Positions 25,153 to 52,233 of a stretch of DNA of 64,000 nucleotides are shown piece by piece (position 1 is the first letter of the stretch; the number at the start of each line of letters is the position of its first letter). Under the pieces are notes generated by a model. It was not told the origin of the DNA. It worked only from the letters and a program-made list of their open reading frames with translations, and did not search any database. The translations under genes and the position numbers were made by a program. Source of the DNA: Bolinopsis microptera (Eukaryota; Ctenophora; Tentaculata; Lobata; Bolinopsidae); assembly GCF_026151205.1 (NCBI RefSeq), contig NC_087077.1:7989983-8053982 (forward strand). The letters are read 5' to 3'.

Positions 25153-25186
25153 TGTTGGCAAACCTATGTCTCAGGTTTGCCAACAG
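25152..25186. repeat. Foldback hairpin at the 5' junction of the R2-like LINE
   Basis: ctgttggcaaacct (25152-25165) pairs perfectly with aggtttgccaacag (25173-25186) across a 7-nt loop. The right arm belongs to the LINE frame and the left arm looks like an inverted duplication of it, as produced when second-strand synthesis snaps back at a truncated 5' end. Confidence 0.85.
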
Positions 25187-28061
25187 GAGACAGGAGGAGA
25201 TTGATAAGTTGGTCATTGAGAGGAGAGTGCTGAGGAGGAAAGCCAGGAAAGCTTGTTCCCAGTCTGTAAAGGATGGTTTCAATGCTTTGCTTAGAGGCCT
25301 GGCAGAGAAGCTGTGTAAGTTGAGAAGAGCAGAGGCAAGGAGGAAGAAGCAGAGAGAAGTGAGGAGACAGAGAGGTGGGTTTACTCGAGATCCTTTCAAG
25401 GCTATTAAAGGTATTCTTGAACCAAGCCCTGTGGGAGAGTTAAAGTGTAGTAAGGAGGAGTTAGACAACCACCTGTCTAATACGTATAGTGATGCCAGTC
25501 GGGCAGTTCCTCTTGGCGTTCTGAATGGGTTACCTGAGGCAGCTCCTAGCCCAACTGTGGGGTTTGACAGCAGGAATATAACCAAGAAGGAGTTCGAAGA
25601 GGTTGTTAAGAAAGCCAGAGGTAAGAGTTCACCTGGTAACAACGGCATCCCGTATACGGTGTACAAGAGGTGTCCAGGAATATCTCAGAACTTGTGGCAT
25701 GTGCTGAGAGGAGGCTACAAGGCTGAGGAGTACCCAGACAACTGTAGGTACTTTGAAGGGATCTACATTCCTAAGGCGGATGGAGATTTTGGACCCAGCA
25801 CAGGACGTCCTATATCGCTAGGAAACATTCAGGGGAAGATATACCTCGCTGTGTTGGCGAAAAGATTAACCAACTTTGTTGTCGCTAACGGGTATGTGGA
25901 TCTCTCTGTGCAGAAGGGTGGAGTTCCTGGTGTACACGGATGTACAGAGCACTTTGGAGCTATGTGGGAGGTGCTCAAAGATGCTAGAGTTAAGAGAAAG
26001 GATCTGAGTGTTGTCTGGTTAGACTTGGCGAATGCTTACGGGGCTGTTCCACATTTACTTATTGTGAAAGCACTCCGCTTCTATCATATCCCCGAGAAAG
26101 TTATCAACATCGTTATCAAATACTTCTCGGAAGTTTACGGAAGATTCTCCTCTAAAACAGTGACATCAGAGTGGCAGCAGTTCGAGATAGGAATATTTAT
26201 GGGCTGTGTCATCTCGGTGATCTTGTTTGTGCTATGCATGAACCTTTCTGACGAGTACTTGAAGATGAAGGTACCCAGGAGTGTCGAGTACATTAAGGAT
26301 GGAACAGCTATACCACCCCTTAAGCTGTTTATGGATGATAGCTGCCTTACCACGGCTAAAATGGTAGATATGCAAACCCTGCTTGATGTTTATCAGGAGT
26401 TCGTTGTGTGGTCAAGGTTCAAGCTTAAGTCGTCTAAGTCTAGGGCACTAGTCTACCAGAAGGGAGTGACAGTGGAGTGGGTTGTAGAGAGTTCAGAAGG
26501 TAGTCAGGCGAGGTTGCAGCTTAGCGGGGAGGTGATCCCGAATGTATCTGAGAAACCAATCAAGTTTCTAGGGAGGTGGATTCGGGCAGAAGGAAAGGAC
26601 AAAGCTATAATCGAGAAAACACACGAGGATCTTGTTACATACCTCAGTAGACTCGATCTTAGCTCCCTCACCGGCCTGCAGAAATGTTGGGGGTATCAGT
26701 ATATGGTCCTTCCAAAGATGAAGTGGCCACTTGCCATTTATGATATCCCGATCAGCACTGTTTCTCGCTGGGAGCAAACAACTAACAGTCATCTCAGAAA
26801 ATGGCTAGGAGTGGGACACACGCTTAGTAGCTCTTGCCTGTTTAGTCATTCATCCAGTGTTGCTCTCCCCATCGACAACCTAACCGACACTTGGAAAGTA
26901 GAAAAGTGCCGTCTCTTGCAGTCATATCAAACATCTCAGGATGCTTTGATCAGAGCGGTGCAACCCCAGGTGCGGTCTGGGAGAGTTTGGAAGGCAGATG
27001 CTCAGCTTCACGAAGCTGAAAGAGACTTGGTGTGTGAGTCAGTGCGAGGTATGGTGCAACCTCTTAGTAGAGCGGGAATTGGTTTCGGTGATTGGAAGAA
27101 GCCCTGGGAGAAGATGTCAGAAAAGGAGCAGCAGAGGGAGGTGTTGGATAGGGTTAAGGAGAACATCAGGAAGGAAAGAGAGGTGCAGTTGGGTACGTTG
27201 GAGATGCAGTCCAGGTGGGGTAATTGGAGAGAGCTGGTGACAAGGACTGACATGAGCTGGCACACGCTCTTCAAGTATGGGGACTCATTAATCGGTTTTC
27301 TGCTTAGTGCTGTGTATGGCACGCTTATTACACCAGCTTTAGCATCCAAGTGGAGCGAGGATGAGGATGGGATGTGCAAGCTGTGTGGTGACAAGTTGGG
27401 AACTGTGCCGCATATTCTGGCTGGTTGTCCTGTGGCACTAAGTCAAGGGAGATACCGATGGCGCCACGATAAGGTGCTTAAACAAATAGCAGACCAAGTG
27501 AAATTCCATTGTGAGCGGAGAGTCAACAAGAGGAAGAGCTCTTGTGTCACTCGGAAAGCCATTGAGTTTGTTCCAGCAGGAGGGAGGTTTAAGGAGGTGA
27601 AGAGGTCGAAAGTCAGTGAGTTTGGGATTCTGAGTGGGGCCACTGATTGGATAGTATTAGCAGACCTGGATGAGCAGCTGAAATTCCCGTCGGATATAGC
27701 AACGACCAGATTAAGACCAGATTTGGTTCTTTTCTCGAAAGCTTCCAAGAGAGTAATCTGGTGGGAGCTTACAGTACCGTCGGAAGAGAGAATAGCTGCA
27801 TCCCATGAGCTGAAGCTTGATCGGTATAACAGTCTACAAGCGGAAATACAAGCTAATGGGTGGTCATGTTTCAGCTTTGCTGTTGAGGTTGGTGCTAGAG
27901 GTGTGGTCGCAGCAAGTTTGGAGTGTGCATCAAGGAAGATTGGTCTGACTGGGAGAGCCCTCAAGAAGTTGGTCAGAGATTGTGGGAAGGATGCAGCCCA
28001 TTGTTCAAGATGGATTTATCTGCTGTCTAGGAAAAGAGAGTGGGAGATGAGAGCTGTTTGA
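25155..28061 (+). CDS. R2-type LINE polyprotein: reverse transcriptase plus restriction-like endonuclease, 5'-truncated
   Basis: An open frame of about 968 codons without a convincing ATG; it begins at the foldback junction, so the natural N-terminus (usually zinc-finger/Myb DNA-binding) is missing. Residues 18-75 are a very basic, probably helical stretch. The RT spans about 140-480: GRPISLGNIQGK (217-228), catalytic D290 in VVWLDLANAYG, MGCVIS in place of the usual QGCPLS, and LFMDD (391-395). A C-x2-C...H-x4-C knuckle (CKLCGDKLGTVPHILAGC) starts at 741. It is followed by a PD-(D/E)xK nuclease: RPDLVLF (854-860) and the WWELTVP segment near 868-875. This order (RT, zinc knuckle, restriction-like endonuclease) defines the R2/NeSL/CRE superclade, which often inserts at specific sites. 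The frame is otherwise intact. Confidence 0.88.
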   Translation: MANLCLRFANRRQEEIDKLVIERRVLRRKARKACSQSVKDGFNALLRGLAEKLCKLRRAEARRKKQREVRRQRGGFTRDPFKAIKGILEPSPVGELKCSKEELDNHLSNTYSDASRAVPLGVLNGLPEAAPSPTVGFDSRNITKKEFEEVVKKARGKSSPGNNGIPYTVYKRCPGISQNLWHVLRGGYKAEEYPDNCRYFEGIYIPKADGDFGPSTGRPISLGNIQGKIYLAVLAKRLTNFVVANGYVDLSVQKGGVPGVHGCTEHFGAMWEVLKDARVKRKDLSVVWLDLANAYGAVPHLLIVKALRFYHIPEKVINIVIKYFSEVYGRFSSKTVTSEWQQFEIGIFMGCVISVILFVLCMNLSDEYLKMKVPRSVEYIKDGTAIPPLKLFMDDSCLTTAKMVDMQTLLDVYQEFVVWSRFKLKSSKSRALVYQKGVTVEWVVESSEGSQARLQLSGEVIPNVSEKPIKFLGRWIRAEGKDKAIIEKTHEDLVTYLSRLDLSSLTGLQKCWGYQYMVLPKMKWPLAIYDIPISTVSRWEQTTNSHLRKWLGVGHTLSSSCLFSHSSSVALPIDNLTDTWKVEKCRLLQSYQTSQDALIRAVQPQVRSGRVWKADAQLHEAERDLVCESVRGMVQPLSRAGIGFGDWKKPWEKMSEKEQQREVLDRVKENIRKEREVQLGTLEMQSRWGNWRELVTRTDMSWHTLFKYGDSLIGFLLSAVYGTLITPALASKWSEDEDGMCKLCGDKLGTVPHILAGCPVALSQGRYRWRHDKVLKQIADQVKFHCERRVNKRKSSCVTRKAIEFVPAGGRFKEVKRSKVSEFGILSGATDWIVLADLDEQLKFPSDIATTRLRPDLVLFSKASKRVIWWELTVPSEERIAASHELKLDRYNSLQAEIQANGWSCFSFAVEVGARGVVAASLECASRKIGLTGRALKKLVRDCGKDAAHCSRWIYLLSRKREWEMRAV

Positions 28062-29814: not shown

Positions 29815-32131
29815 CTTAGAATCTTACAGTTACTCCTCCCAGAAGGAGGAAGACTGAGGAGAAAGAGGAGGACTGAGGAGGACTGAGGAGGAGGAGAAGG
29901 ACCGAGGAGGACTGAGGAGGAGGAGGACTGAAGATGAGAGGGAGGACTGAGGAAGAGGAGCAGGATTGGTGAGAAGGAGGAGGAAAACGAGAAGGAGGAG
30001 GACTGAGGACGGGGAGGAGGAGGAGAAGGACTAAGGATGAGGAGGACTGAGGAGGAGGATGAGGACTGAGGAGGAGGAGGATAAGGAGGAGAATGAGGAG
30101 GAGGAGGAGGAGGAAGACTCAGGAGGAGGACTCAGGAGGTGGAGGAGGATGAGGAGGACTGAAGAGGAGGAGGAGGAATGATGAGGAGGAGGAGGACTCA
30201 GGAGGAGGAGGAGGACTGAGGACGGGGAGGAGGAGGAGGACTAAGGACGAGGAGGACTGAGGAGGAGGACGAGAGCGAAGATGAGGAGGAGGAGGACTGA
30301 AGAGGAGGACTGATAAGAAGGAGGAGGAGGAGGAGGTGGAATGAGGAAGAAGACTGAGGATGAGGAAAAGGAGAAGGAGGACTGGGGAAGAGGAGGACTT
30401 GGGGAGGACTGAGGAGGAGGACTGGGGTAGGACTGAGGAGGATGATGAGGAGGAGGATGATGAGGAGGAGGACCGAGGATGAGGAGAAGGAGAAGGAGGA
30501 CTGGGGGAGGACTGATGAGGAGGAGGACTGGGGGAGGACTGATGCAGATGAGGAGGAGGACTGGGGGAGGACTGAGGAGGAGGAGGACTTCGGAGTAGAA
30601 GGAGGAAAAGGAGGAGAAGGAGGAGAAGGAGGAGGAGGAGGAGGAGGAGGAGGACTGACGAGGAGGAGAAGGACTGAGGAGGAGGAGGAGGATGAGGAGG
30701 AGGAGGACTGACGAGTAGGAGGAGGACTGGGGACTGAGGAGGAGGACTGAGGAGGAAGAGGATGAGGACTGAGGAAGAGGACTAGGGAGGATGAGGAGGA
30801 GGAGGACTGAGGATGAGGACTAAGGAGGAGGAGGAGGAGGCTGAGGAGGAGGGGGACTGAGGAGGAGGAGGACTGATGAGGAGGAGAAGGAGGAGGAGGA
30901 CTGAGGAGGAAGAATGAAGAGGATGAGGACGAGGATTAAGGACGAGGATTAGGAGGATGATAACGAGGACTAAGGAAGAGGACTGATCAGGAGGAGAAAG
31001 AAGAGGAGAAGGAGGAGGAGAAGGAAGAGGAGGATAAGGAGGAGATTGAGGAGGAAGAAGAGGAGGATGACTCAGGAGGAGGACTAAGGAAGTGGAGGAG
31101 GATGAGGAGGAGAACTCAGGAGGATGACTGAAGAGGAGGAGGAGGACTGACGAGGAGGAGGAGGAGGACTCAGGTGGAGGAAGAGGAAGAGGACTAAGGA
31201 CGAGGACGAGCATGACTAGTGGAGGACTGAGGATGATGACTGATGAGGAGGAGAAGGAGGAGGACTTAGGAGTAGGAGAAGGAGGAGGAGGATGAGGAGG
31301 AGGAGACTGAGGAGGAGGAGACTGAGGAGGAGGAGACTGAGGAGGAGGAGGACTGTTGAGGAGGAGGAGGATGATGAGGATCAGGACTGAGGAGGACTGA
31401 GTAGGAAGACTGAGGAGGACGAGGAAGAGGACTAAGGACGAGGAGGAGGACGACTGAGGAGGAGGAATGATTAGGAGGAGAAGAAAGAGGAGAAGGAGGA
31501 AGAGGATGAGGAGGAGGAGGAGAACAAGGAGAATGAGGAGGAGGACTGGGGGAGGACTAAGGAGGAGGATAAGGAGGAGGAGGACTAAGGACGAGGATGA
31601 GGACGATTATGAGGAGGACAGAGGATGAGGACTGATGAGGAGGAGGAGAAGGAGGAGGACTGGGGAGGATGACTCAGGAGGAGGATGAGGAGGACTCAGG
31701 AGGAGGACGACTATGAGGAGGACTGAGGAGAACTGATGGGGAGGAGAAGGAGGTGGAGGATGAGAAATGAGGATGAGGAGGAGAAGGACTGGGAGTAGGA
31801 CTGAGGAGGAGGGGACTGAGGAGGAGGGTAAGGAGGACTGAGGAGAAGGACGAGGAGGAGGACGAGGAGCCAGGAGAAGGAGGAGGAGGATGAGAAATGA
31901 GGATGAGGAGGAGGAGGAGAAGGAGAAGGACTGGGAGTAGGACTGAGGAGGAGGGGACTGAGGAGGAGGGTGAGGAGGACTGAGGAGAAGGACGAGGAGG
32001 AGGACGAAGAGCCAGGAACAGGACTGAAGAGGACTCAGGAGGAGAAGGACTCAGGCCCAGGAGGAGGAAAACTTAGGAGGAGATGGAAGAGGACTGATGA
32101 GAAGGAGGAGGAAGACTAGGGAGGAGGAGGA
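29815..32131. repeat. 2.3-kb polypurine GAGGA-type satellite
   Basis: The plus strand is nearly all purine, built from irregular gaggag, gactgagga and gaggagaagga units. Occasional direct sub-duplications are visible (for example gatgagaaatgaggatgagg at about 31760 and 31890). Any open frame here is low-complexity Asp/Glu (plus) or Ser/Pro/Leu (minus) and is not a gene. A mirror-symmetric polypurine tract of this size can form triplex DNA. Confidence 0.95.
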
Positions 32132-34631: not shown

Positions 34632-37066
34632 ATAACAACTTGTTTAATTTATCTCCGAATTACACACAAATTTCTGAAAGTTTCGTAGACTTAAATCAAT
34701 TACAGAGGGTGTGGCTATTGGCCAGCCCCTCTATTTCACTATTATGGTTGAAACTATAAGAATACAGATTATATTATTACAGTGATTTTACAAAAGTCGA
34801 AACAGTAAACACCAATTTGTAGGATAGTTTAAATCACACCAAAATTGGTCCCAGAATGCAATGAAATCTGATGGCGTCTTTTCAGTGAAAAAGAGGCCAC
34901 ACCCTCTGTAATTGATTAAAGTTTACGAAACCTTTAGAAAATGAGTTATATAACTTGCAACTTAAAACTAGGATAAATTGAGTATTTATACTCAATTTAT
35001 CTTAGTTGCATGAGTAATATATATATACTCTCATTTTTTCAGAGCAAACGTAATTTAAATGGCCAAACACAATTCAATAAAATTTGGCTCGATCCGATTA
35101 TCCAAACTATCAAATAAATGCGAAAATGAACCTTCTTTTGAAAAAAATGAACACAAATATGTTTCGATTTGACAAATTTCTCGAACCAGTGGTGGTAGTA
35201 AGCAGGAGGTGACCGGGACATGATTTCAGGCCTGACCGGGACCGGGACCGGGACCGGGATACAAAATGTGACTTGACCGGGACCGGGACCGGGACCGGGA
35301 CTGAGATTATCAATTTACCGGGACCGGGACCGGGACCAATAATTTCTGGGATTTCTATCTTACCGGGACCGGGACCGGGACCGGGACCAACAATCCAATT
35401 TTACCGGGATGACCGGGATGACCGGGACCAAAACTGGTATTCTCATATTGAAAGCTGCAACTTTCATTTACATTATAATTGAACAATTTGAATAAGTAAT
35501 AACTAGAATATTAAATTAGAAAAAACTAGTAAAAACCCGTCAATATGGGGCATGGGCCTAATGTACTACACCAATAATGTTCATGTACTGATTACTCAAG
35601 TTCACCCTCATTCCTCATTCCTCAATCAATGATCCCTCAAATTATTCAACAGTTTCATTCTCCAATTCCAATTGACAATTGGGCGTAGCCCGAGTTGAAA
35701 ACTTGATGTTACTTTGCACTTATGAGTTATGTAACGATATTAGTTACCTAAACTTGTTTAGCAATTTTAAACATTGTTTTATTTGGCTCAGAGGTTGTTT
35801 AAAGATGAAATTCACAATGAATGAAAGTAAAAACTTAAAATCACAGTGAATAACAACTTGTTTAATTTATCTCCGAATTACACACAAATTTCTGAAAGTT
35901 TCGTAGACTTAAATCAATTACAGAGGGTGTGGCTATTGGCCAGCCCCTCTATTTCACTATTATGGTTGAAACTATAAGAATACAGATTATATTATTACAG
36001 TGATTTTACAAAAGTCGAAACAGTAAACACCAATTTGTAGGATAGTTTAAATCACACCAAAATTGGTCCCAGAATGCAATGAAATCTGATGGCGTCTTTT
36101 CAGTGAAAAAGAGGCCACACCCTCTGTAATTGATTAAAGTTTACGAAACCTTTAGAAAATGAGTTATATAACTTGCAACTTAAACTAGGATAAATTGAGT
36201 ATTTATACTCAATTTATCTTAGTTGCATGAGTAATATATATACTCTCATTTTTTCAGAGCAAACGTAATTTAAATGGCCAAACACAATTCAATAAAATTT
36301 GGCTCGATCCGATTATCCAAACTATCAAATAAATGCGAAAATGAACCTTCTTTTGAAAAAAATGAACACAAATATGTTTCGATTTGACAAATTTCTCGAA
36401 CCAGTGGTGGTAGTAAGCAGGAGGTGACCGGGACATGATTTCAGGCCTGACCGGGACCGGGACCGGGACCGGGATACAAAATGTGACTTGACCGGGACCG
36501 GGACCGGGACCGGGACTGAGATTATCAATTTACCGGGACCGGGACCGGGACCAATAATTTCTGGGATTTCTATCTTACCGGGACCGGGACCGGGACCGGG
36601 ACCAACAATCCAATTTTACCGGGATGACCGGGATGACCGGGACCAAAACTGGTATTCTCATATTGAAAGCTGCAACTTTCATTTACATTATAATTGAACA
36701 ATTTGAATAAGTAATAACTAGAATATTAAATTAGAAAAAACTAGTAAAAACCCGTCAATATGGGGCATGGGCCTAATGTACTACACCAATAATGTTCATG
36801 TACTGATTACTCAAGTTCACCCTCATTCCTCATTCCTCAATCAATGATCCCTCAAATTATTCAACAGTTTCATTCTCCAATTCCAATTGACAATTGGGCG
36901 TAGCCCGAGTTGAAAACTTGATGTTACTTTGCACTTATGAGTTATGTAACGATATTAGTTACCTAAACTTGTTTAGCAATTTTAAACATTGTTTTATTTG
37001 GCTCAGAGGTTGTTTAAAGATGAAATTCACAATGAATGAAAGTAAAAACTTAAAATCACAGTGAAT
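34632..37066. repeat. Tandem duplication, two near-identical 1.2-kb copies
   Basis: Copy 1 is 34632-35849 and copy 2 is 35850-37066. They differ by tiny indels in A and TA runs (aaaactagg/aaactagg and one atat step). Short reading frames inside are identical in both. The unit starts upstream of the mariner-like segment and ends inside the ccgggac-rich element, so duplication happened after that insertion. An assembly artefact cannot be excluded from sequence alone. Confidence 0.93.
35040..35202. repeat. Mariner-like element, right part (piece 1)
   Basis: It matches 50599-50754 (aaacgtaatttaaatggcca, then gaacacaaatatgtttcgat-like sequence), is duplicated again at 36255-36417, and is continued after the nested insertion at 37244-37340. 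Confidence 0.8.
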
Positions 37067-37243
37067 GAAATTATGTAAAAGATCCCGGTCAAAATCCCCG
37101 CTAATTTGAGTGATTGACCGGGACCGGGACCAAGAATCCTGAATTAACCGGGACCGGGATCATAAATCAGCATTTGACCGGGACCGGGACCGCGATGAAA
37201 AATGTGACTTGACCCGGTTCCGGGAATCCCGGTCACCTCCTGA
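35203..37243. mobile_element. hAT-like repeat-rich element nested in a mariner-like element
   Basis: It starts caggaggtgaccggg and ends cccggtcacctcctg, a 15-bp terminal inverted repeat. gtagtaag flanks it at 35195-35202 and 37244-37251, with one extra A at the right border. The empty site gtggtagtaagtcataccag is preserved at about 50749. The interior contains tandem ccgggac hexamers in several clusters. No transposase is encoded. Its left part was duplicated in tandem together with its flank. Confidence 0.75.
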
Positions 37244-37340
37244 GTAGTAAGTCATACCAGAACAAATTATTTCAATTGGGCACTCAGTGACTGAGCTATT
37301 AAGGCCAACGTTTGCACACTGACTTTTGGCCCACCCTGTA
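37244..37340. repeat. Mariner-like element, right end (piece 2)
   Basis: It continues the sequence interrupted at 35202 and ends gacttttggcccaccctgta, the same terminus as at 50826-50846. No matching left end was found. Confidence 0.8.
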
Positions 37341-37802
37341 TATTTATAATATACGGCTGGAAAAAATGTAACTGGATATCTGCCACAATGCTGCTATTAT
37401 TAAGGTTAAAGTAACATTTAGCACATAAAGAAGTCTGGTTTGCTAGGTTTTAATTGGTCGTATAATAACAAATAAAAATGAGTTAAGACTACAAAAACGG
37501 TCAATAGAACCTAATTATAATACCTGTATCGAGAACTCGACTTGAATGCACTGATAGCATTGGTACTAACATTCTATCAAATTATGTCATATCTTGAGAC
37601 TTGATAGCTGCCTGAAACAGTTTTGAGTCAACATTATCGTGATATTCTAGAAATTGAAACCAATTCTCAACTTTAAAAAAGCAGATTTCAATAAATGCCA
37701 TAGAATTAAATTCTACCTTTTTAAATTCTAAGAATTTGTTGATTTATTAAAATTCTGTCTCAATTAATATATAAGGGTACATGCAATGTAGTTCGACACG
37801 CA

Positions 37803-40844: not shown

Positions 40845-42212
40845 ATGCAAAGCCTATGAGAAGCTTCTTAGGGAGTATATTCTCGATGGTGTTGAACAGG
40901 TGCTTAGTAGCACGCAGCACGGCTTCATGAAGGGTCGGTCATGCTTATCTAACCTACTGGAGTCTATTGACGCTGTCAATGACTTGCTGGCTGAAGGTGG
41001 CTGTGCTGATATATTATACTTTGATTTCTCTAAGGCCTTTGATAGCGTACCACACCACCGTTTATTAGTTAAATTAAGAAATGTTGGTGTTCCTGAGGAG
41101 ATAATTGGTATTTTAGAAAACTTTTTAGTAGGGAGGTCTATGAAAGTTAAAGTAGGAGATGAATTTTCTGAGATTAAGTATATACTTTCAGGAGTGCCCC
41201 AAGGCAGTGTTTTGGGACCATTGCTCTTTCTTTTATTTGTAAATGATCTTCCAGAAGGAATCAAAGCTATCATCAAACTTTTTGCTGATGATGTTAAAAT
41301 GATTTTTAATCCTTTTATTAATCGAACAGCTGATTTAAGTTGCTAGAACTTTGGGAGTCTCGTTGGTGTTTAAATTTTAATGTAGATAAGTGTATGGTCA
41401 TGCAAATTGGTTCTTGTAATCCTAAGAATCAGTACTTGTTTGGTGGTGTGCCTTTGAGATGTGTTGAAAGCGAGAAGGACCTTGGAGTTGTCTTTAACAC
41501 CAGCTTCAACTTTGAGGGTCATGTGAGAAAGTGCATTGCTAAAGCTAATAGTACCATTGCCTGGCTTACAAGAAATATTATATCGAGGGAGAAAAGCGTT
41601 ATGCTGGGCTTGTATAAGTCTTTAGTAAAGCCTCATATAGAGTATTGTTCACAGGCATGGGCTCCAATGGCTAGGCATGGAAACTGGTCACTGATTCTTG
41701 AATTGGAAGGTGTTCAAAGATCGTTCACCCGTATGATTGATGGATTGGGACTCATGACGTACAGAGAGAGACTGGATAAGCTGAACCTCACAACCCTGCT
41801 TGAACGCAGGGTTCGTGGAGATCTCATTGAGATGTTCAAGATCCAGGAAGGCTTTGTGGGTTATGGTTCCGATTTATTTGGTCGTTCTGGTAGGACCGTT
41901 GCTGCTAGATCAAAGACTCATAGATTCACCACAAATGAGACTGATTTCTTTGCCCAAAGGGTCTTGCGCTACTGGAACAGTCTACCACCACTTGTGAAAG
42001 CTAGTGAGTCAGTTACTGGTTTCAAGAGGGGATTAGATGCCTTTCGGCTTCATGGATATCGAGCTAATAAGCTTGGTCATCACTGGGAACTTTCATATGA
42101 CATCTTTGATAGGATAGATGTGTCTGTGTCTAATAGGAATAGTTATGTAAGTTATATGAAAGATAATCCATTGGTAGCTAAGAGGAAGAAGGTTAATATC
42201 AAAGGTATTTAG
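40845..42212 (+). pseudogene. 5'-truncated CR1-like LINE reverse transcriptase with one frameshift
   Basis: It begins in the RT fingers (KAYEKLLREYILDG) and continues through QHGFMKGRSC, the catalytic Asp in YFDFSKAFDSVPHH, GVPQGSVLGPLLF and FADD. A frameshift with a stop follows at about 41340-41346. The other frame carries on at once with LELWESRWCLNFNVDKC through EKDLGV, HIEYC, GVQRSFTRMIDG and RRVRGDLIE to a stop at 42210-42212. Endonuclease and ORF1 are missing. It is the same family as the copy at 8048-9070, but diverged. Dead by truncation and frameshift; the catalytic residues themselves are kept. Confidence 0.85.
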
Positions 42213-42715: not shown

Positions 42716-43244
42716 AAGTATCACTTCATTGTAGTCCGGCTTCCCCCTATCAATCTGTCCTCATCATATTCAAAAATTGTTGTAAATTTTAACTGTCGAT
42801 ATAGTTTATAACATTACATAAGATGGGTATGATTTATTTGTTACTTGGACAACAGGCTCATATCCTAATATAACTCACATTATTTTGTCACTGTTCGAAT
42901 TATTCTAGAAGGTTCAATTGCCTCCAGTTGAAGGCACAAGAAACTGCTCACAAGATTTGAAGATTTGATTTTTCAGAATGAGGTGGACAAGTTGTCTTTT
43001 TCCTTGCAGATCAGGCCTTCTAAAAATTTCCTCTTTCACCATAAATATCCTCTCAAATCCAAAATGTCCTCCCAGTCAGAATTTCAGACTAAATTAATGG
43101 ATTTATCACATTACCTTAACTAATTTAATCTTCATTTCATATATCTACATTTTATCCTGATTCCTGAATTTGGTCAAATGATAATCTACATAAGTTGCCT
43201 CATATTCATTGATTGAAATACAGGGTTTAAGTTAAATTCATAAT
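42716..43244. other. Non-coding stretch, nothing recognised
   Basis: No motif seen between the repeats and the mariner-like left terminus. Confidence 0.4.
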
Positions 43245-43277
43245 ACAGGGTGGGCCAAAAGTCAGTACCCATACGTT
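43245..43277 (+). repeat. Left 33-bp terminal inverted repeat of a mariner-like element
   Basis: Reads tacagggtgggccaaaagtc from 43244 and is the exact reverse complement of 50813-50845. Both ends abut TA, the target duplicated by Tc1/mariner transposases. Confidence 0.88.
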
Positions 43278-43509
43278 CACTTCTCAAACATTTTATTACA
43301 TTATGTTGTTATCTAGTCTTGCTGCTAAATAGATAAGCCGACAGTGCAGCAGCTCATCGTGACGTGGCTTAAACGCTAATACTACGCACACTGACTACAA
43401 CACTACAGATAACAGAGACCCCTAGGCTCGGTGGCCCCAATTTAATTGGGCCCCTCCTTCCACATAAGTCCACCGTAGCCCTCCTTGAAGCGTAAGTTTA
43501 CCTTTCTAC

Positions 43510-45102
43510 ATGACTGAATCGACGGAACGCCCGTTTTGTTTCTCAACTGCAACCTGCTTGGAATTGGTCGATAAACTCATTGTACCTCAACTCGACCGTG
43601 AATTGCTGCTCTTTGGAGCGACTGAAGATGACCTTCAGTTATGCAAGCAATCCAAGCAGAAAATGCTACGTGCACACATTCTTGACAGTCATAAGTGTAC
43701 CTCTACATTAACCGAAACTACTGACAAACTTATCTCTCTAACTCAAATTTTTTCGAGATCATCCACTGATGCGATGACCGGCCTCCAGAACACCGTTAGT
43801 GAAGCACAGTCCCTTGTCCAGTCTCTACGTGACCATTCTGCTCACCCTCCTACTCAACCTACAACCACCCTCCCCGAAATACCTGCACCACCAACACCGG
43901 TCCAGACTGTGGAACAGCCCTTCTCCAAGCTCGAAACTGGTGACCAGCTGAAGAGGTTTGACTTTAAGAGATTGGACTCTGAATTAACCTATGATAAAGT
44001 TTTCTCGAATAGAAAGGTTGCATATTTTGGTGATGCTCCTTACAAGTATTTAGGAGGGTACCACAGGGCAAAGCAATTAGACCCTGAGACGTACCTTGCT
44101 GAAATACTTGTAGCAGTTGATGATGTGTGCAAGACCAACAACATCAACTATAAGGATTTCAATAGCTGCATGATCACCAAATATGAATCACACGTCTCGT
44201 GTATACCTCCTCATTCCGATGATGAATCGTGTATAGTACCCGACAGCACTATACTTACCATTTCCCTGGGGGGTAAAAGGGATTTAGTTTTTCGTAGACG
44301 TCCTCCAGGCGAGTATCGCGATGAAACTGTGACAGTTCAACACGGCGACTGTTACACTATGACGCGAAAATCGCAGGACCTTTTTGACCATGCTGTTCCT
44401 CCGCAAACTCAGGCGGATTTTGAAGGTCCTCGAATCAGCTTAACCTTTAGACAGTTGGCCTCGGCACATTCCAGAAAATCTAGCAGCCATCAGCTGCGAC
44501 CTCTACCCCATCATAAAGTGAACCAGACCAAACGAGTGCTGATACTGTCTGACAGCAAAAACTGTAATTTTGACTGTTCTCAATTTCGTTCACCTGTCAT
44601 AGCGTTCCGGGAAAACTTATTTTTCCTCCGCGACTTAAAGGAACACCGGGAATCGATTCAGCAAGCCGACATTGTACTCATAAGTGCTGGCATAAACGAT
44701 ATCCAGAAAAACAGAGCGAGTGCCGTCCTGCTGCATAATCACATCAGAAGTTTCATAGAACAGTTCCCGCGCACTATGTTCTTATTCGATGCAGTCAGTC
44801 CACTATCGATACATGCTGACCGATTCAACACCCACAACGACATTATCCAGTACCTTAATGAACTCATGTTTAAGTGCTCCCTTCACCATGACAACTTCAG
44901 ACTCTTCGACAACTCAAGTTTTAGTCTCGCTCACCTCGCTCGTGACGGTCTACATCTTAACTATATTGGACAGAGTGTATTATCAGATTGCTGGGTAAAC
45001 TGTGTGCTCATTGGACTGGGGTTCAGGCGTGGACCCCTACCTCTACGTGAGCACTTTAAACGTATGATATCTTATCCAATCCCTGGCCACTTTGGCACCT
45101 GA
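43510..45102 (+). CDS. LINE ORF1: AlkB-type dioxygenase fused to SGNH hydrolase
   Basis: An intact 530-codon frame from ATG 43510. Residues 1-150: helical N-terminal region, then a Pro/Thr-rich linker (112-135). Residues about 160-316: an AlkB (ALKBH2/3-like) Fe(II)/2-oxoglutarate dioxygenase. It shows NRKVAYFGDAPY substrate-lid sequence, the iron-binding H-x-D at H235/D237 and distal H294 (FDHAVP), ISLGGKRDLVFRR, and the 2-oxoglutarate-binding PRISLTFR with R308 and R314. All signature residues are present. AlkB enzymes remove alkyl groups from nucleic-acid bases. Residues about 340-500: an SGNH/GDSL-type hydrolase with S349 (LILSDSK), G394-I-N-D397 and the D479-x-x-H482 pair (DGLHLN). Esterase domains are known in CR1-group ORF1 proteins. 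An AlkB domain ahead of one is not something I know as characterised. ORF1 products normally bind and chaperone the element RNA, so repair of alkylated template RNA is a reasonable inference. Confidence 0.88.
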   Translation: MTESTERPFCFSTATCLELVDKLIVPQLDRELLLFGATEDDLQLCKQSKQKMLRAHILDSHKCTSTLTETTDKLISLTQIFSRSSTDAMTGLQNTVSEAQSLVQSLRDHSAHPPTQPTTTLPEIPAPPTPVQTVEQPFSKLETGDQLKRFDFKRLDSELTYDKVFSNRKVAYFGDAPYKYLGGYHRAKQLDPETYLAEILVAVDDVCKTNNINYKDFNSCMITKYESHVSCIPPHSDDESCIVPDSTILTISLGGKRDLVFRRRPPGEYRDETVTVQHGDCYTMTRKSQDLFDHAVPPQTQADFEGPRISLTFRQLASAHSRKSSSHQLRPLPHHKVNQTKRVLILSDSKNCNFDCSQFRSPVIAFRENLFFLRDLKEHRESIQQADIVLISAGINDIQKNRASAVLLHNHIRSFIEQFPRTMFLFDAVSPLSIHADRFNTHNDIIQYLNELMFKCSLHHDNFRLFDNSSFSLAHLARDGLHLNYIGQSVLSDCWVNCVLIGLGFRRGPLPLREHFKRMISYPIPGHFGT

Positions 45103-45932
45103 GCACGACGTATTTTATATCTTAATGTCAAATTATCATGACAAAAATATCGAATCCTGAACAACTTTCCAGACTCGCGCTGAGTTGCAAACAATTTCAC
45201 TAATCAAACAAACGTAACTTATTTGAACAAACTATTACTATATTACTAAATTTTTTCGTCATTTCAAATAAAAATTAGAAACTTAAATCAAATTCAAACT
45301 CAAGCACAAAGCACATAATACAACCAACTACTTAAATGAACTTTTCCCTTATCCAGATTCCCTACCTTCTCACCTTATCTATCACACCTTATCAGCAAAA
45401 CGCGAAATAAACCCTGCTTGATAATAGTCCACGTCCCTACATCATAACAATCATTTCATATTATCTAATTCCTAACCTCATGCCGTACTCAGACAACGAC
45501 GACGCAATATTTACACGATATCTACACAGATAATACACAGTACTCATTATACATACATCACACATTACTGTACATCTGACTCTGTACATTTGACTGATCT
45601 GTACATTTGACTCTGTACATTTGACTCTGAACATTCGACACATACATTACTGTACATATGGAAATTAGGCTCATGCACGGTGAGCTGCTGCCATCAAGTA
45701 ATAGAAGAGAAGTTAAAGGTCAATCATAAAGGTAAAGGTGAAGTTTACTTAATTACTGTAGATAAGTCACGGTACTTTCTACACACAGGACTGAAAGTCT
45801 TCGTTAGAAGTATCTGACTAGGTCACGTTATTATTATCATATTTTGTATTAATAGTAAGTCTATATACTCTCTTAAATATATCATAATATAACTATAATA
45901 CTAACGAATATAATACATTATCTCATAGTTCT
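45103..45932 (+). other. Inter-ORF spacer of the LINE
   Basis: An 830-bp non-coding spacer, long for a LINE. It contains an imperfect tandem repeat around ctgtacatttgactctgtac at about 45575-45640, and AT-rich sequence just before ORF2. It could hold an internal promoter or a reinitiation signal, but none is recognisable. Confidence 0.6.
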
Positions 45933-48900
45933 ATGAACGAATCTCAGCATTGCAACAAATGTAATACACGTATTCCTAAAGCACGTTCGTTCCTAATTTG
46001 CAGTCACTGCGACAAAATAAAACATATGAAATGCATGAAGTTATCTAAGTCTGAGGCAAAAATAATTGTAGATTCTGGCTCTGCCTGGATATGTTATGAC
46101 TGTATTTCCAGCGCCTTACCAGTAAATGCATGCCCCTCGGCAAAGCCACCGAGACAAGGGCCCGTCATAGGTCCTAAATTTAAAGTTCAATGCACATGCT
46201 GTAATGGCTGGATTTACTCCCCCGCCAACCTGAAAACCTGCCACTGGTGCGAATCTAAAGTACATACCAAATGTCACTCCGACTTATTAGGATGCAGAAA
46301 CTGCTGTGAAAATATGATCCCGGGATACTATGTACATTGCTATCAGCTATACTCATTACATACACATACTCACACCGGCATAATCCACAATCCCTACGAT
46401 CGCTATCAGTTGATTAACGAAATAGGAAATACAATTGACCAAGATCAGGAACTCGAATATTGGAATGAGATTTCTGATATTTTAGTTAGCTGCAATTACA
46501 TGGAGCCGACAAATGTAAGTTCGTCAGGAGCATGTGATCTTAAGATATTTACCTTAAACATACGGGGACTTCTTAAAAACGTAGACAAATTAAGAGAAGA
46601 TATATTCACGTACTCGAAGTATGATGTCCTTTGTTTTAACGAGACTAATCTCTTGCAGGATAAGCTTCCTAATGGTATTAATGACCTAGTGCTTGAGGGA
46701 TTTTATGAACCACTGTTACGAGATCCAATATGTAGTTCTGGTCGTGGTGGGGGTTTAGCAATTTATATCAATACGCGCGTATGCGAGTCTGAAAATATTG
46801 AAAAATTCTTTCCCCAAAACTTTGATGTGACAGACAAGAGTGGTGAATTCATGTTGGTAAAACTCCATAACTGCAAAGGCTTTAACAAAACAAAGATAAT
46901 CGTCAATATATATCGGTCACCAGCATCAAAAAATCCTGATAATTTTAACAAACTCATTGACTCCCTATTACACGGCATGGAAAGGCACTCGAGAAAACAT
47001 ACTATATTAGTCGGTGATTTCAATGTAGATCTTACACATTATGATACTGACAAACACTGTCAAAATTTGATTGAAACTATGACTAAATACGGTTTCTTTC
47101 AGCTAGTCTCACGTCCCACACGTATCACTGATCACAGTGCCACTCTTATAGATCATGTTTACAGCAATAATGTACAACACACACACAGCTGCAATGTTCT
47201 TACTGTTGACCTGTCTGATCATCTAGCCACTCTTGTTACTATCTCACTTGGGCAATACAGCCACATTGCAGGGAGTAGAAACAAACGACACAGAGTCGAC
47301 CATGGAATGAATGTTGAAAAACGTATGTTTAACGAGTCGAACAACCTTAAATTTATAGAATTAATTGGATCCGAAATGTGGGAGGAAGTCACACGTGAAA
47401 ATTGTGCTGATGAACAATATAACAAATTTATTGAAATATACGGTCAGCATTATGATGAGGCATACCCAGTGAAAACCAATCATGTGCGCCGCAAATTTGA
47501 AAGGCAGGACCCCAAACCTTTTATGCTACCCTGGCTTGAAATTGCATGTGCTCGTAAAAACAAATTATTCCATGCCAAAATAGTGGACCCAACGGAGGAA
47601 AACTACAAGGCTTACAAAAAGCATAAGGCATTCTGCGACAAGCACGTCAATAAGGCAAAAGACAAATACTACAAAACACAATTTGATAAGTATAAAGATT
47701 GTTCAAAGAAACAATGGCAGCTGATCAACACTCTACTTGGCAGAAAATCTAAATCTCATAACAAAATTAAACTCCAAAACGCCGACGGAAATATCATAAA
47801 TAGTGACAGTGATGTAGCTGAGCACTTTAACTCTTACTTCTCCAACATTGCCACAAAAATCAAAGATGCGATCAGCGCGCGTACTGTATTCGATCCAGGG
47901 GGTTTTAAACATTACCTTAGCAGCCCAGCTTCGCAGTCTATGTTCGTAAGACCAACTACCGAAAGTGAAGTTGAACAAATTATTAGCAAGCTTAAGAATA
48001 AATCCACTCAAGACACTAAAATTGAACCCCTAAAAATGGTAAAAGACTGCCCCTCCTTCTGTAAAGTCTTGTCCATAATCATTAACACATCATTTAGTCA
48101 AGGTATCTTCCCATCATCTCTCAAAATAGCTAAAGTTATACCAATTCACAAAGGAGGCAGCAAATCCGACGCCACTAACTATCGACCCATATCTTTGCTG
48201 TGCACCTTTTCCAAATTGTATGAAAAACTTATGCATAATAGAGTAATGGACTTCCTTGACAAGAAAGGCTCGCTCTTTGAAGGACAATATGGCTTCCGGC
48301 CAGGCCGATCCTGTGAGCATGCTCTTTTGGATGCTCAACACACGATTCTGAATTCCCTTGCCAAAAAGGAAGTTGCTCTATTACTCCTAGTCGACTTTAG
48401 TAAAGCTTTTGACGTTTTGTCTCATGATGTATTGATTGACAAACTCCAGCACTATGGAATCCGTGGGCAAGCTTTGCAATGGTTTAAATCCTACCTGAGC
48501 ACACGTCAGCAATATGTATGTTTGAATGGTATTAAATCAGCTCTTAAACCTATTACATACGGAGTTCCACAGGGCAGTATTATGGGACCTTTGTTATTCC
48601 TAATCTACATCAATGATATGCCAAATATCAACAGTATGATAAAGTTTATACTCTACGCTGATGATGCAAATATCATAATAAAAGGCAAAAATGCAAACGA
48701 TGTTATACAAAAATTCAACCAATTCTCCCACGAGTTTGTACGCTGGGTTGACTGTAATGGACTTGCACTTAATCTAAAAAAGACCTGCTATATGCTTTTC
48801 GGTGTTAGAAATACTGATAATACTCCAAATATTCATATTGCAGACACACAATTAGAACGTAAGAGGGAAGCACGGTTCCTTGGCGTTATAATGGATGATA

Positions 48901-49592
48901 AACTAACATGGTCTAAGCATATAGCAGCTGTTAGATCAAAAATGATGCGATATGTAGGAATTATGTATAAAATAAAACGTCACCTATCGATTCAAATAAG
49001 GCTACAGATATATCAAAGTTTTGTTCAATCGCATTTAAACTTCTGTTCAATTGTATGGGGGTTTGCAGCAAAAAATCACATTGAATCACTCTTCTCACGA
49101 CAAAAACAGGGTATCAGGGCAGTAATGCCAGGTCACATTAATTACTTTTACAAAGACGGTCGACTGCCAGAACACACAAAACAATTTTTCAATAACAATG
49201 GTATACTCACGGTGCACAGTGTTATTGTAAAAAACACACTAATTCTCATGCACCGAATCAAACATTTCCGCAGCTCAGTCCCTCAACAAATCTGTATGAC
49301 TATCCCAGAAAATGCACCCACTGCAAACTCAGATCACGTGACTGCAGCATCCTGGTTAGCCGAGTACAACACCACACATTTCAGATCTTCGATGTTCTTC
49401 AAAGGACCTTTACTCTCAATTTATGCTGTAAATGCAAATGTAAGCACCCTACCCACACTTTTTTCCATAAACCTTTTTAAATCGGCTACAAAACGCATGC
49501 TCTTGAACCTGCAGAGTGAAAATGACGATGACACGTGGCCCAGTTTCTTATTACATAATATTCCAGGTCTAAGAAGGTCACAACGTGTCTGA
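45933..49592 (+). CDS. LINE ORF2: zinc fingers, apurinic-type endonuclease and reverse transcriptase
   Basis: An intact 1219-codon frame. Residues 7-57 form a PHD-like zinc finger (C7-x2-C10, C23-x2-C26, H31, C34, C54, C57). A second Cys/His cluster follows at about 87-125. The endonuclease (about 202-440) shows N209 (TLNIRG), E237 (FNETNL), GDFNVD (361-366) and SDH (428-430). The RT (about 690-960) shows NYRPISLL, FEGQYGFRPGRSC, catalytic D821 (LLVDFSKAFD), GVPQGSIMGP and YADD (908-911). The LINE thumb and C-terminal region (FLGVIMDDKLTW, HLNFC) follows. Every catalytic residue is present, so the enzyme could be active. It would nick target DNA and prime reverse transcription there. The N-terminal PHD fingers, which in other proteins read histone tails, may steer target choice. 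Domain order fits the CR1/Jockey group. Confidence 0.93.
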   Translation: MNESQHCNKCNTRIPKARSFLICSHCDKIKHMKCMKLSKSEAKIIVDSGSAWICYDCISSALPVNACPSAKPPRQGPVIGPKFKVQCTCCNGWIYSPANLKTCHWCESKVHTKCHSDLLGCRNCCENMIPGYYVHCYQLYSLHTHTHTGIIHNPYDRYQLINEIGNTIDQDQELEYWNEISDILVSCNYMEPTNVSSSGACDLKIFTLNIRGLLKNVDKLREDIFTYSKYDVLCFNETNLLQDKLPNGINDLVLEGFYEPLLRDPICSSGRGGGLAIYINTRVCESENIEKFFPQNFDVTDKSGEFMLVKLHNCKGFNKTKIIVNIYRSPASKNPDNFNKLIDSLLHGMERHSRKHTILVGDFNVDLTHYDTDKHCQNLIETMTKYGFFQLVSRPTRITDHSATLIDHVYSNNVQHTHSCNVLTVDLSDHLATLVTISLGQYSHIAGSRNKRHRVDHGMNVEKRMFNESNNLKFIELIGSEMWEEVTRENCADEQYNKFIEIYGQHYDEAYPVKTNHVRRKFERQDPKPFMLPWLEIACARKNKLFHAKIVDPTEENYKAYKKHKAFCDKHVNKAKDKYYKTQFDKYKDCSKKQWQLINTLLGRKSKSHNKIKLQNADGNIINSDSDVAEHFNSYFSNIATKIKDAISARTVFDPGGFKHYLSSPASQSMFVRPTTESEVEQIISKLKNKSTQDTKIEPLKMVKDCPSFCKVLSIIINTSFSQGIFPSSLKIAKVIPIHKGGSKSDATNYRPISLLCTFSKLYEKLMHNRVMDFLDKKGSLFEGQYGFRPGRSCEHALLDAQHTILNSLAKKEVALLLLVDFSKAFDVLSHDVLIDKLQHYGIRGQALQWFKSYLSTRQQYVCLNGIKSALKPITYGVPQGSIMGPLLFLIYINDMPNINSMIKFILYADDANIIIKGKNANDVIQKFNQFSHEFVRWVDCNGLALNLKKTCYMLFGVRNTDNTPNIHIADTQLERKREARFLGVIMDDKLTWSKHIAAVRSKMMRYVGIMYKIKRHLSIQIRLQIYQSFVQSHLNFCSIVWGFAAKNHIESLFSRQKQGIRAVMPGHINYFYKDGRLPEHTKQFFNNNGILTVHSVIVKNTLILMHRIKHFRSSVPQQICMTIPENAPTANSDHVTAASWLAEYNTTHFRSSMFFKGPLLSIYAVNANVSTLPTLFSINLFKSATKRMLLNLQSENDDDTWPSFLLHNIPGLRRSQRV

Positions 49593-50215
49593 AAGTTACT
49601 GGACACAACGGTCATTATATCAGTTTAGTGAATTAGTTAATTAGTTAATTAGTAAATCAGTTATTAGTCATATGGTTATTATTAAGTACTATATATTATA
49701 TTATATGATATTACAAAAATAAACTATGAATATATATTTGCACACAAAAAAACCAGAACAAACTGATCACAGACTAGCGGCAACTAATATTAATGGATAA
49801 GCCACACATCCTAAATTCCAGGTCCATATTTACACTGCCACATTCCCCACTATCACTATTTTCTCTATCAGCACAAACCGTAATTAATTTATTTCAACAA
49901 TCACAAACACTACATATCCAAACTAATGGCATGGCATAGCAATATCTACGATATCCTAAATCAGTCCCTAACAAACTTAGCGCGAGTCTGAAAGGCTGTT
50001 GGAAGCACAGAGTGCTCCATATTTTGTTTTTATCAATAAAATTTTCTTTTTTTTCATTTTCTTTTTTTTTAAATAAATTTATTAACTGCGTGCAAATTTG
50101 TGTTTCAGATTTGATCTATTTATGATATATATTTATGATTATGTAATAAAGTTATTAATATTATATTCGTAAACATTGGCTGGCTTACAAACCAGTCCCC
50201 AAACAAACAAACGGG
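49593..50215 (+). other. 3' untranslated region of the LINE
   Basis: AT-rich sequence with tandem gttaattag steps (about 49632-49655), several AATAAA-like signals (about 49718 and 50144) and a (caaa)n run near 50203. The true 3' end was not proved. Confidence 0.5.
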
Positions 50216-50549
50216 TCTTACACCACCGCCGTGTTTTAAAATTTGATTTTTGGGGGCCACACCCAATCAACATTGAATTGCTTTTACTGGTGTTTGTGAA
50301 CATGTTAGAGACTCCGTTGTAACATATTACAATAGGTCATTTAATTCGGAATATAATCTGAAAAGATGGTGCGAAACGGATTTAAAATGACGAAGTTATC
50401 AAGCAATTTGTTTATCTCGTTAGCAAAATTGATTGAGTACTCAATGATTACCCAATTACGACACCATAATTGGGCTCCCTGCACCGCTCCCATAATGCGG
50501 ATCTAGCCTAAACCCAATCATCTGATCACACGTAGTGAACAAACTCGTT

Positions 50550-50846
50550 ATGCGTCATATATCGGTCATCTGAGACGCTAGAACTCTAATTTTTTCAGGA
50601 CAAACGTAATTTAAATGGCCAAACACCATTCAATAAAATTTTGCTCGATCCGACTATTCAAACTATCAACTAAATGCGAAAATGAACCTTCACTTGAAAA
50701 AAATGAACACTCGAATATGTTTCGATTTGACAAATTCCTCGAACCAGTGGTGGTAGTAAGTCATACCAGAAAGAATTATTTCAATTGGGCACTCAGTGAC
50801 TGAGCTAAGGCCAACGTATGGGTACTGACTTTTGGCCCACCCTGTA
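50550..50846. repeat. Mariner-like element, right part and terminal inverted repeat
   Basis: It matches the pieces at 35040-35202 and 37244-37340, but without their nested insertion. The right terminus 50813-50845 is the exact inverse of 43245-43277. A 62-codon frame (50615-50803) has no recognised motif, so no transposase is supported. Confidence 0.82.
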
Positions 50847-51069
50847 TGTTTATGTTTGCCAATAACATTGCAGTGAAATTACCATTCATATCCTTCAATC
50901 ATCAAAATATAAAGTAAACTGTTCCTTTAATACTTTTATTTTGATATCTAAGTACCCTAATTGTGATGCTTGTTCCGTAAACAACCCTTATTTCATGATA
51001 GTTAACTTATGTCACATATTTGATAAGTTTGAATTTAAATTTTTTCACAAATTTTAGCTGTTCTCAGTG

Positions 51070-52233
51070 ATGAGTAAAGAATTAGAAGTCCATGTCCTAA
51101 AATCTCATACTGCTGCTGTAAACACTGTTTCATTTTTTGATAATGATCAGAAATTTGTTGCTGCTGGAGATGATTGTTGTTTGAGTGGATGGGATGTAGA
51201 TGAAAGAAAATGCATCTTCAAGTTGAAGGGCCATGAAGGCCCAGTGAAAGCTTGTGCAACTTCACCAACAGGTTCCAAAATTGTGAGTGGTTCTTGGGAC
51301 AGAACTGTGCGGATATGGGATGGCTCTTCCACAAACTGCCTGTGGACTCTTCAACATGAGGCTTTAGTCTTAGGAGTAAGCTTTTCTGAAGAATCTTCGC
51401 TAATCACTGTCTGTTGTGATGATAAACAGACCAAAGTATGGGACATGAGATCTTATGAAAATGTGATGACCTTAACTGGTCACACTAATTCTGTAACCTG
51501 CTGCGCCCAGAACAACTTCACATTAGCAACAGGAAGTTTTGACAAGACAATCCGCCTTTCTGATATGCGAACTGGGAGTACCCTTTTGCTTTTAACTGGA
51601 CATACTTCTGCTGTTTCAGCTGTTGACATCTCTTCAGAGGGATTCAAACTTTGTTCAGGGAGTTGGGACAAGACAGTGCGAGTATGGGATGTCCACGCAG
51701 GAACTTACCGAACACAAGGACCGCGTGTCATGTATGAACATGAAGGTTGTGTGAGTTCTTGTAAATTTGCGGTGGACAATAAGAAGATTGTTAGTGCAGG
51801 GTATGATAAAACCGTTATTATCTGGGATGCGTTGGCAACCCAAAAACGACATCAGATTCGGGCACACGGGTCCTGGATCAACGACATTGCTATGACAGCA
51901 GATGGAAAGTGTCTTCTTTCTTGCAGCAAAGACAGAACAATCCGAATGTGGAATGTTGAAAATGCTGATAAGATGCCTGTAGTCTTACACAATAAACTGT
52001 CGATGGGTTACAAATTCCAAGAATGTGTGGACTGTCAGAGAACATTTAAGGTTGAGAAGCGGGATCTTATAGAGGTGGGAGAAGAATACACAAAATGTGT
52101 TTACTGTCGGATGCCAACCAGATCCTATCACAGACTCTCTGAACAGGATCTGATTGTCACTGAAACAGACGATGAAGTGGGCAACATTGCAAAAAGTGAT
52201 GCACCAGCTCTTGAAACTATGGTCTCTGCGTGA
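51070..52233 (+). CDS. WD40-repeat protein with C-terminal CxxC...CxxC module (WDR88-like, tentative)
   Basis: A single 387-codon frame from ATG 51070. Seven WD40 units are visible by their GH...WD spacing, for example LKGHEGPVKACATSP...SGSWDRTVRIWD, LTGHTNSVTC...TGSFDKTIRLSD, LTGHTSAVSAVD...SGSWDKTVRVWD and AGYDKTVIIWD, enough for a seven-bladed propeller. The tail has C319-x2-C322 and C343-x2-C346, a likely zinc ribbon, and an acidic end. WD40 propellers are protein-interaction scaffolds; the partner is unknown. A possible acceptor (gctgttctcag) lies just before the ATG, so a 5' non-coding exon is likely. The stop TGA (52231-52233) overlaps a near-consensus donor (gtgagt from 52230), so a longer spliced form is possible. 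A coding region without introns could also mark a retrogene. Confidence 0.88.
   Translation: MSKELEVHVLKSHTAAVNTVSFFDNDQKFVAAGDDCCLSGWDVDERKCIFKLKGHEGPVKACATSPTGSKIVSGSWDRTVRIWDGSSTNCLWTLQHEALVLGVSFSEESSLITVCCDDKQTKVWDMRSYENVMTLTGHTNSVTCCAQNNFTLATGSFDKTIRLSDMRTGSTLLLLTGHTSAVSAVDISSEGFKLCSGSWDKTVRVWDVHAGTYRTQGPRVMYEHEGCVSSCKFAVDNKKIVSAGYDKTVIIWDALATQKRHQIRAHGSWINDIAMTADGKCLLSCSKDRTIRMWNVENADKMPVVLHNKLSMGYKFQECVDCQRTFKVEKRDLIEVGEEYTKCVYCRMPTRSYHRLSEQDLIVTETDDEVGNIAKSDAPALETMVSA

Follow-up and report, generated by a model that had tools for sequence, protein, structure and literature searches.

An AlkB domain joined to the SGNH esterase in ORF1 of LINEs from the Bolinopsis microptera genome

Among long interspersed nuclear elements (LINEs), members of the CR1, L2 and RTEX groups such as ZfL2-1 have an esterase-type (Type IV) first open reading frame (ORF1), in which a coiled coil is followed by an SGNH esterase (available parts of PMC3905857 and PMC4120745). 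According to the available part of PMC3905857, the ORF1 protein (ORF1p) of ZfL2-1 combines a coiled coil with an active esterase that binds anionic lipids, its class of ORF1 is said to be without defined RNA-binding domains, and cnidarian and sponge examples of esterase ORF1s are mentioned. Metcalfe and Casane place esterase ORF1s only in vertebrate L2/CR1 groups and give L2 subgroup 5 a PHD finger, probably at the start of ORF2 (PMC4120745, in the part available); the word AlkB is absent from PMC4120745. Here we describe a LINE from a 64,000-nucleotide stretch of the ctenophore Bolinopsis microptera (NC_087077.1, positions 7,989,983 to 8,053,982; hereafter the window), for which computation established the anatomy and fold, the conserved state of the catalytic residues, purifying selection, spread over multiple families, linkage to ORF2 and exchange of ORF1. 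Like the CR1/L2/RTEX elements it has a presumed coiled coil and then an SGNH esterase in ORF1, and an endonuclease and a reverse transcriptase (RT) in ORF2; unlike the esterase-type ORF1, that of the window LINE has an AlkB domain between these two parts, and that of the LINE type L061 has one in front. We file the window LINE as a variant of the esterase-type LINE ORF1 that has spread through one genome.

A retrotransposon with an AlkB domain is likewise found in Phalaenopsis, but there the host element is a Ty3/Gypsy long terminal repeat (LTR) element, the AlkB lies in an additional ORF and is called close to N6-methyladenosine (m6A) demethylases, and the word esterase is absent from PMC9289625. 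The plant RNA viruses cited in that paper (Alpha-/Betaflexiviridae and Closteroviridae) are selfish RNAs with AlkB for which repair was proposed; they are not retroelements, and are likened here by description only, without sequence comparison. SGNH domains occur on unrelated element classes, as here, in the Texim genes associated with fish Helitrons (PMC4021074) and in the GDSL ORF3s that rotifer retroelements have in common (PMC5408684). AlkB is absent from the main texts of both papers and from that of PMC6431247 on giant transposons, and among the open-licence papers listed by the literature searches no title or abstract opening describes AlkB in a LINE or Helitron.

Structure of the LINE and its ORF1

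ORF1 (43510..45102; the LINE and all its parts are on the plus strand) encodes 530 amino acids comprising a coiled coil, an AlkB and an SGNH domain. In the secondary structure of the predicted model, a long helix presumed to be a coiled coil covers residues 67-109 (43708..43836) and would probably serve oligomerisation; it is followed by an AlkB fold at residues 133-318 (43906..44463; H235, D237, E239, H294, R308, R314) and an SGNH hydrolase fold at residues 337-504 (44518..45021; S349, G394, N396, D479, H482). Comparison of the predicted model with known structures placed the AlkB domain nearest to the ALKBH2/3 class, and in the fold table for a family F model the rows fall on the AlkB part only. 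In an alignment of one representative per family (n = 8, 25-55% identity to the window ORF1), T223, Y225, H235, D237, E239, H294, R308 and R314 of AlkB and S349, G394, N396, D397 and H482 of SGNH are kept in all eight families, and HxD-x-E is kept in 22/22 rows of an AlkB alignment of elements and host genes. An earlier note, made from the letters of the window alone, had read here an intact LINE ORF1 with AlkB before SGNH and had proposed a comparison with ALKBH2. The arrangement is borne out by the domain matches, the predicted fold and the ligands conserved in 8/8 families, and the signature it had named (H235, D237, H294, R308, R314) proved invariant.

ORF1 also matches an alkylated-DNA-repair family of PHROGs at 2e-16. 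NCBIfam gave no match for ORF1, and viral contigs queried with ORF1 and the eight-family alignment contained no relatives, although records near the window's genome may be excluded from them. A chance AlkB motif or a single-copy accident is ruled out by the ORF1 domain matches, the copy search and the conservation in eight families; the last also rules out a host ALKBH exon captured by one copy.

The LINE unit is full length (43278..50212, about 6935 bp), its ends being set by alignment to 13 other copies. On the 5' side, eight of these start at window positions 43276-43281, one at 43297, and four are 5'-truncated. On the 3' side, seven align up to 50210-50219 and then continue as an (AAAC)n or poly(A) tail and unrelated sequence; among the other six, the alignment ends at 50150 ahead of poly(A) in one copy and at 49692 in another, two are cut by the fetched region and two have no match in it. 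The 5' untranslated region (UTR; 43278..43509) opens with a monomer of about 20 nt; by eye, five of nine other full-length copies (L002, L004, L005, L007, L010) have a further complete or incomplete monomer ahead of it. Downstream of ORF1 are a spacer of 830 nt (45103..45932), ORF2 (45933..49592; 1219 amino acids) and a 3' UTR (49593..50212) with an (AAAC)n tail at 50201-50212. ORF2 comprises a PHD-like finger at residues 7-57 (22.3 bits, below the cut-off of 24), an AP-type endonuclease at 207-430 and an RT at 744-986. The RT and AP-type endonuclease in ORF2, and a common 3' end with variable 5' truncation, identify the unit as a LINE, and no long direct repeat that would indicate LTRs surrounds it among the 20 of 32 repeat families listed. 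Inspection by eye gave one plausible 6-bp target-site duplication, at L002, and none evident at the window LINE. The PHD-like finger and the esterase only suggest the CR1/L2 clade. A 27-nt imperfect inverted repeat (85%) links the inter-ORF spacer (45160-45186) with the 3' UTR (49974-50000).

Spread, constraint and exchange within the genome

The genome searched, the only eukaryotic one covered, has 264,652,675 bases in 232 contigs, 13 of them 15-26 Mb long, and the counts are lower bounds, given by the best 81 of 788 candidates for ORF1, 38 of 6983 for ORF2, 150 of 587 for PF13532 and 40 of 6787 for ORF2 of the family C type. The ORF1 search returned at least 81 matches, the first 10 of which cover the full length at 99% identity or more and contain no stops, and 56 of the 81 scored span residues 176-470 (the AlkB core and most of SGNH). 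The ORF2 search returned at least 38 matches, 10 of them full length, 99-100% identical and without stops. Within the best 38 of 6983, 30 ORF2 matches reach the N-terminus: an AlkB-type ORF1 lies at most 4 kb upstream on the same strand in 23, and none lies upstream of the other seven among the ORF1 matches listed. The fusion, seen by the earlier note at one locus, is not a single copy, with at least 10 intact copies of ORF1 and many diverged families, and the window LINE is a recently active member of one of many AlkB families in this genome. A further ORF1 family (46-47% identity; e.g. C3:17480050) is also present among the ORF1 matches.

Selection across copies, which had been suggested as a check, is visible in the ratio of nonsynonymous to synonymous polymorphism (pN/pS) among 10 window-family copies (AlkB 0.0016/0.0179, SGNH 0.0010/0.0112, N-terminal part 0.0056/0.0069). 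For whole ORF1, families A to E have ratios of 0.22, 0.28, 0.62, 0.12 and 0.29 (37, 6, 17, 6 and 11 variable codons, respectively). Between families only pN is informative, because synonymous divergence is mostly saturated.

The PF13532 search of the genome gave at least 151 matches, with all rows shown above the Pfam cut-off; by eye most lie in open frames of more than 500 amino acids, and one listed row has internal stops. Seven further LINE types were scanned (Pfam E 0.01), which revealed AlkB in all seven and the SGNH profile, below its cut-off, in six; L062 has no SGNH profile match, but GDS, GIN and DxxH motifs by eye. AlkB is followed by SGNH in L060, L063, L065 and L066, a weak PHD-like finger stands ahead of AlkB and SGNH in L062 and L064, and in L061 AlkB comes first, followed by a long middle part and SGNH last (E 0.007). 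Matches to endonuclease regions of ORF2 (E 1e-4 to 1e-9) lie in the frames 3' of L060, L063, L064 and L066. The frame 3' of L062 has no match and is endonuclease-like by eye, L065 has only a 30-residue ORF2 match at the end of its region, and the L061 region ends before this point. Separately, a long frame at L048 (C1:18537500-18541500) shows similarity to helicase/P-loop proteins (ResIII, UvrD and others, none reaching its Pfam cut-off) and runs on into a stretch related to the SGNH of LINE ORF1, with the catalytic His apparently replaced by Tyr; a similar match lies at C8:8269542. At L048 a host-like gene may have captured a LINE esterase.

Comparison of trees for ORF1 and RT revealed that ORF1 has been exchanged between LINEs. 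In the ORF1 tree, families F, G and H group together (100/100), apart from A, B, C, D and E, whereas in the RT tree H groups with A, B, D and E (91/88, not starred), apart from F and G, and C lies far outside on a long branch. In family H, ORF1 resembles that of G (43% identity, against 28% to A) and ORF2 resembles that of A (55%, against 40% to G); another copy of H shares 99.4% identity across 4.5 kb. Family C has a D-like ORF1 (56%) and an ORF2 of another lineage (about 25%) with no PHD match; it is one mobile unit, since its copies on two different contigs share 99.3% identity across 4.57 kb. The exchange is also evident from an abrupt shift from diverged to near-identical sequence between L060 and L063: their ORF1s share 55% of amino acids (aligned blocks 66-73% in nucleotides), and from about 275 nt past the L060 ORF1 stop they are 97.7% identical over 666 nt, up to the end of the region. 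Among relatives of the C-type ORF2 (47-48%), another AlkB+SGNH ORF1 precedes ORF2 at two of the three loci checked, L077 (AlkB as a weak 2OG-FeII_Oxy match only, E 0.005) and L078 (AlkB Pfam E 5e-15), with SGNH over the cut-off in both (E 1e-10 and 2e-12). The third locus, L079, has no AlkB ORF1 in the region fetched, where frames are sulfatase-like by eye. A gain of the AlkB ORF1 by the second ORF2 lineage in family C only is rejected, as it also occurs at L077 and L078. A tandem array with a period of about 46 bp, estimated from alignment offsets, adjoins a family C copy (L019 1-1237, L051 4593-5096).

AlkB and SGNH also occur together in a Helitron. One frame at L059 contains SGNH at 28-164 (E 7e-5, below cut-off), AlkB at 475-607 (E 5e-21), DUF6570 and Helitron_like_N (E 3e-22), and continues in L080, where Pif1-type helicase motifs are seen by eye, to a stop-to-stop length of 3388 amino acids; a Rep domain and a Pif1-type helicase in one protein identify L059/L080 as a Helitron. 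The GDS motif of L059 is in frame just 5' of the first ATG, and the true start is perhaps reached via an upstream exon. L070 repeats the SGNH+AlkB part of L059, and at least six AlkB matches lie in frames of 2225-3388 amino acids, L059 being the one examined for Helitron domains. Three host genes (L067, L068, L069), ALKBH2/3-like by eye, have the domain and motifs of the elements; the Arg motif reads RxNLTFR in the three host rows and RxSxTxR in the 19 rows from elements. The AlkB tree of these 22 rows omits L071, L072, L073 and L076 (near-duplicates or partial) as well as L077 and L078. In it the host genes share a branch with L061 and L074 (99/96), and the remaining 17 rows (15 from LINEs, 2 from Helitrons) fall outside this branch. 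With a long Helitron branch and stars on only 7 of 19 inner branches, the tree fits one capture or several.

Surroundings of the LINE in the window

The LINE sits in an older element with terminal inverted repeats (TIRs), because other LINE copies start and stop inside the TIRs and have unrelated flanks; on the same grounds, a DNA transposon or composite bounded by perfect 35-bp TIRs is rejected. The left TIR (43243..43277, plus strand), outside the LINE, is 35 bp long and 100% complementary to 50813-50847, the right TIR, which closes the rest of the older element (50213..50847, plus strand). The LINE insertion point is directly behind the left TIR, and the other LINE copies examined have no such TIR in their flanks. 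The right ~260 bp of the TIR element recurs, interrupted, at 36242-37347 and partly at 35027-35202; the former sibling copy is broken by a GACCGGG-rich repeat element at about 36418-37243. By eye, TA adjoins the ends of the TIR element.

Just past the interrupted TIR element is a WD40-repeat protein frame (51067-52233), and a piece of a different LINE lies at 40900-42212 (RVT_1 E 7e-21 in 40900-41343). Elsewhere, a 968-amino-acid frame with RT (25155-28061, +; RVT_1 E 2e-16) stands head to head with a 675-amino-acid frame without Pfam match (23013-25040, -) in a strongly GC-skewed stretch, and a 2.3-kb purine-rich AGG array occupies 29844-32131 (GC skew 0.79 and AT skew 0.61 in 30001-32000). 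A MULE transposase domain was detected at 14733-15419 (E 3e-14), and a frame at 8060-9070 has weak, below-cut-off RT and Arc_MA matches.

Possible roles of the AlkB domain

ALKBH2/3 enzymes remove 1-methyladenine (m1A) and 3-methylcytosine (m3C), pairing-face lesions that stall polymerases. The best-supported reading, to which we give about an even chance, is that, within the ribonucleoprotein particle (RNP), the AlkB of ORF1p undoes lesions of the m1A/m3C type on the element's single-stranded nucleic acid. The coiled coil would oligomerise ORF1p on element RNA, the esterase might, as has been proposed for ZfL2-1, tether the RNP at membranes or release it there, and AlkB would oxidatively remove methyl lesions of the Watson-Crick face from the single-stranded nucleic acid, lesions that if left in place would block the polymerase during target-primed reverse transcription. 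Repair of element nucleic acid had also been proposed in the earlier note, and this part is best supported, judging from the ALKBH2/3 class of the predicted fold and the constraint on the catalytic residues. Its stress on reverse transcription alone is weakened: a Helitron, which is a DNA transposon, carries AlkB+SGNH in the same genome, so AlkB may have a role that does not depend on reverse transcription.

The Helitron is one of several points that weigh against lesion repair in the RNP. The Asn of the ALKBH N-x-Y motif, which binds 2-oxoglutarate (2OG), is Thr223 in all eight families; the three host genes have the Asn, as do some but not all of the other element rows. AlkB-family membership therefore rests on the fold, the iron triad and the Arg pair. 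The SGNH Asp479 of DxxH is Asn in three of the eight families (Asp in five, the window family included), family C is under weaker constraint (0.62, from 17 variable codons), and single-sequence Pfam scans (E 0.1) detected 2OG-FeII_Oxy_2 in six and Lipase_GDSL_2 in six of the eight family representatives. Other 2OG substrates, such as m6A or N6-methyladenine in DNA (6mA), may also be used.

If such marks were the target, AlkB could strip regulatory methyl groups (m6A on RNA, 6mA on element DNA) so that host surveillance fails. The orchid Gypsy AlkB binds RNA and demethylates m6A in vitro (available part of PMC9289625), and one mark-eraser role would suit LINE RNA or DNA and Helitron DNA alike; set beside the ALKBH2/3-like fold, we consider such anti-silencing rather unlikely. 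Helitrons have no RNA intermediate, and the presence of AlkB in one, together with the ALKBH2/3-like fold and the DNA substrates in the PDB titles of the matched ALKBH2/3 structures, would fit repair at the DNA stage, on single-stranded cDNA or displaced target DNA for the LINE and on single-stranded rolling-circle DNA for the Helitron, rather than on RNA. However, the LINE AlkB is placed in ORF1, by analogy an RNA-packaging protein, and not in the DNA-handling ORF2, and we regard a role confined to DNA as improbable. That AlkB is a nucleic-acid-binding or assembly domain for which catalysis is irrelevant could draw on the persistence of SGNH proteins after loss of hydrolysis (Oskar; PMC3905857, in the part available) and on the Asn in place of the SGNH Asp noted above, but iron ligands and both Arg are retained in 8/8 families at 25-55% identity, as is HxD-x-E in 22/22 rows, which makes this very hard to credit.

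With lesion repair as the preferred reading, the Helitron points to a wider role on single-stranded nucleic acid, or to mark erasing. We tentatively suggest, at somewhat short of even confidence, that AlkB+SGNH is an exchangeable cassette across mechanistically unrelated transposons (LINEs and Helitrons) of one animal lineage, that mobile elements there are generally selected to repair their single-stranded nucleic acid by direct reversal, or to demethylate it, and that ORF1 is swapped between LINEs by recombination. The enzymology of ORF1p is a poorly understood part of LINE biology. If the reading is true, the presence of a repair enzyme in the RNP would mean that retrotransposition is limited by damage to template bases or by their methylation, and the many families, two ORF2 lineages, a Helitron and reassortment would provide a natural experiment on the accessory functions that mobile elements need.
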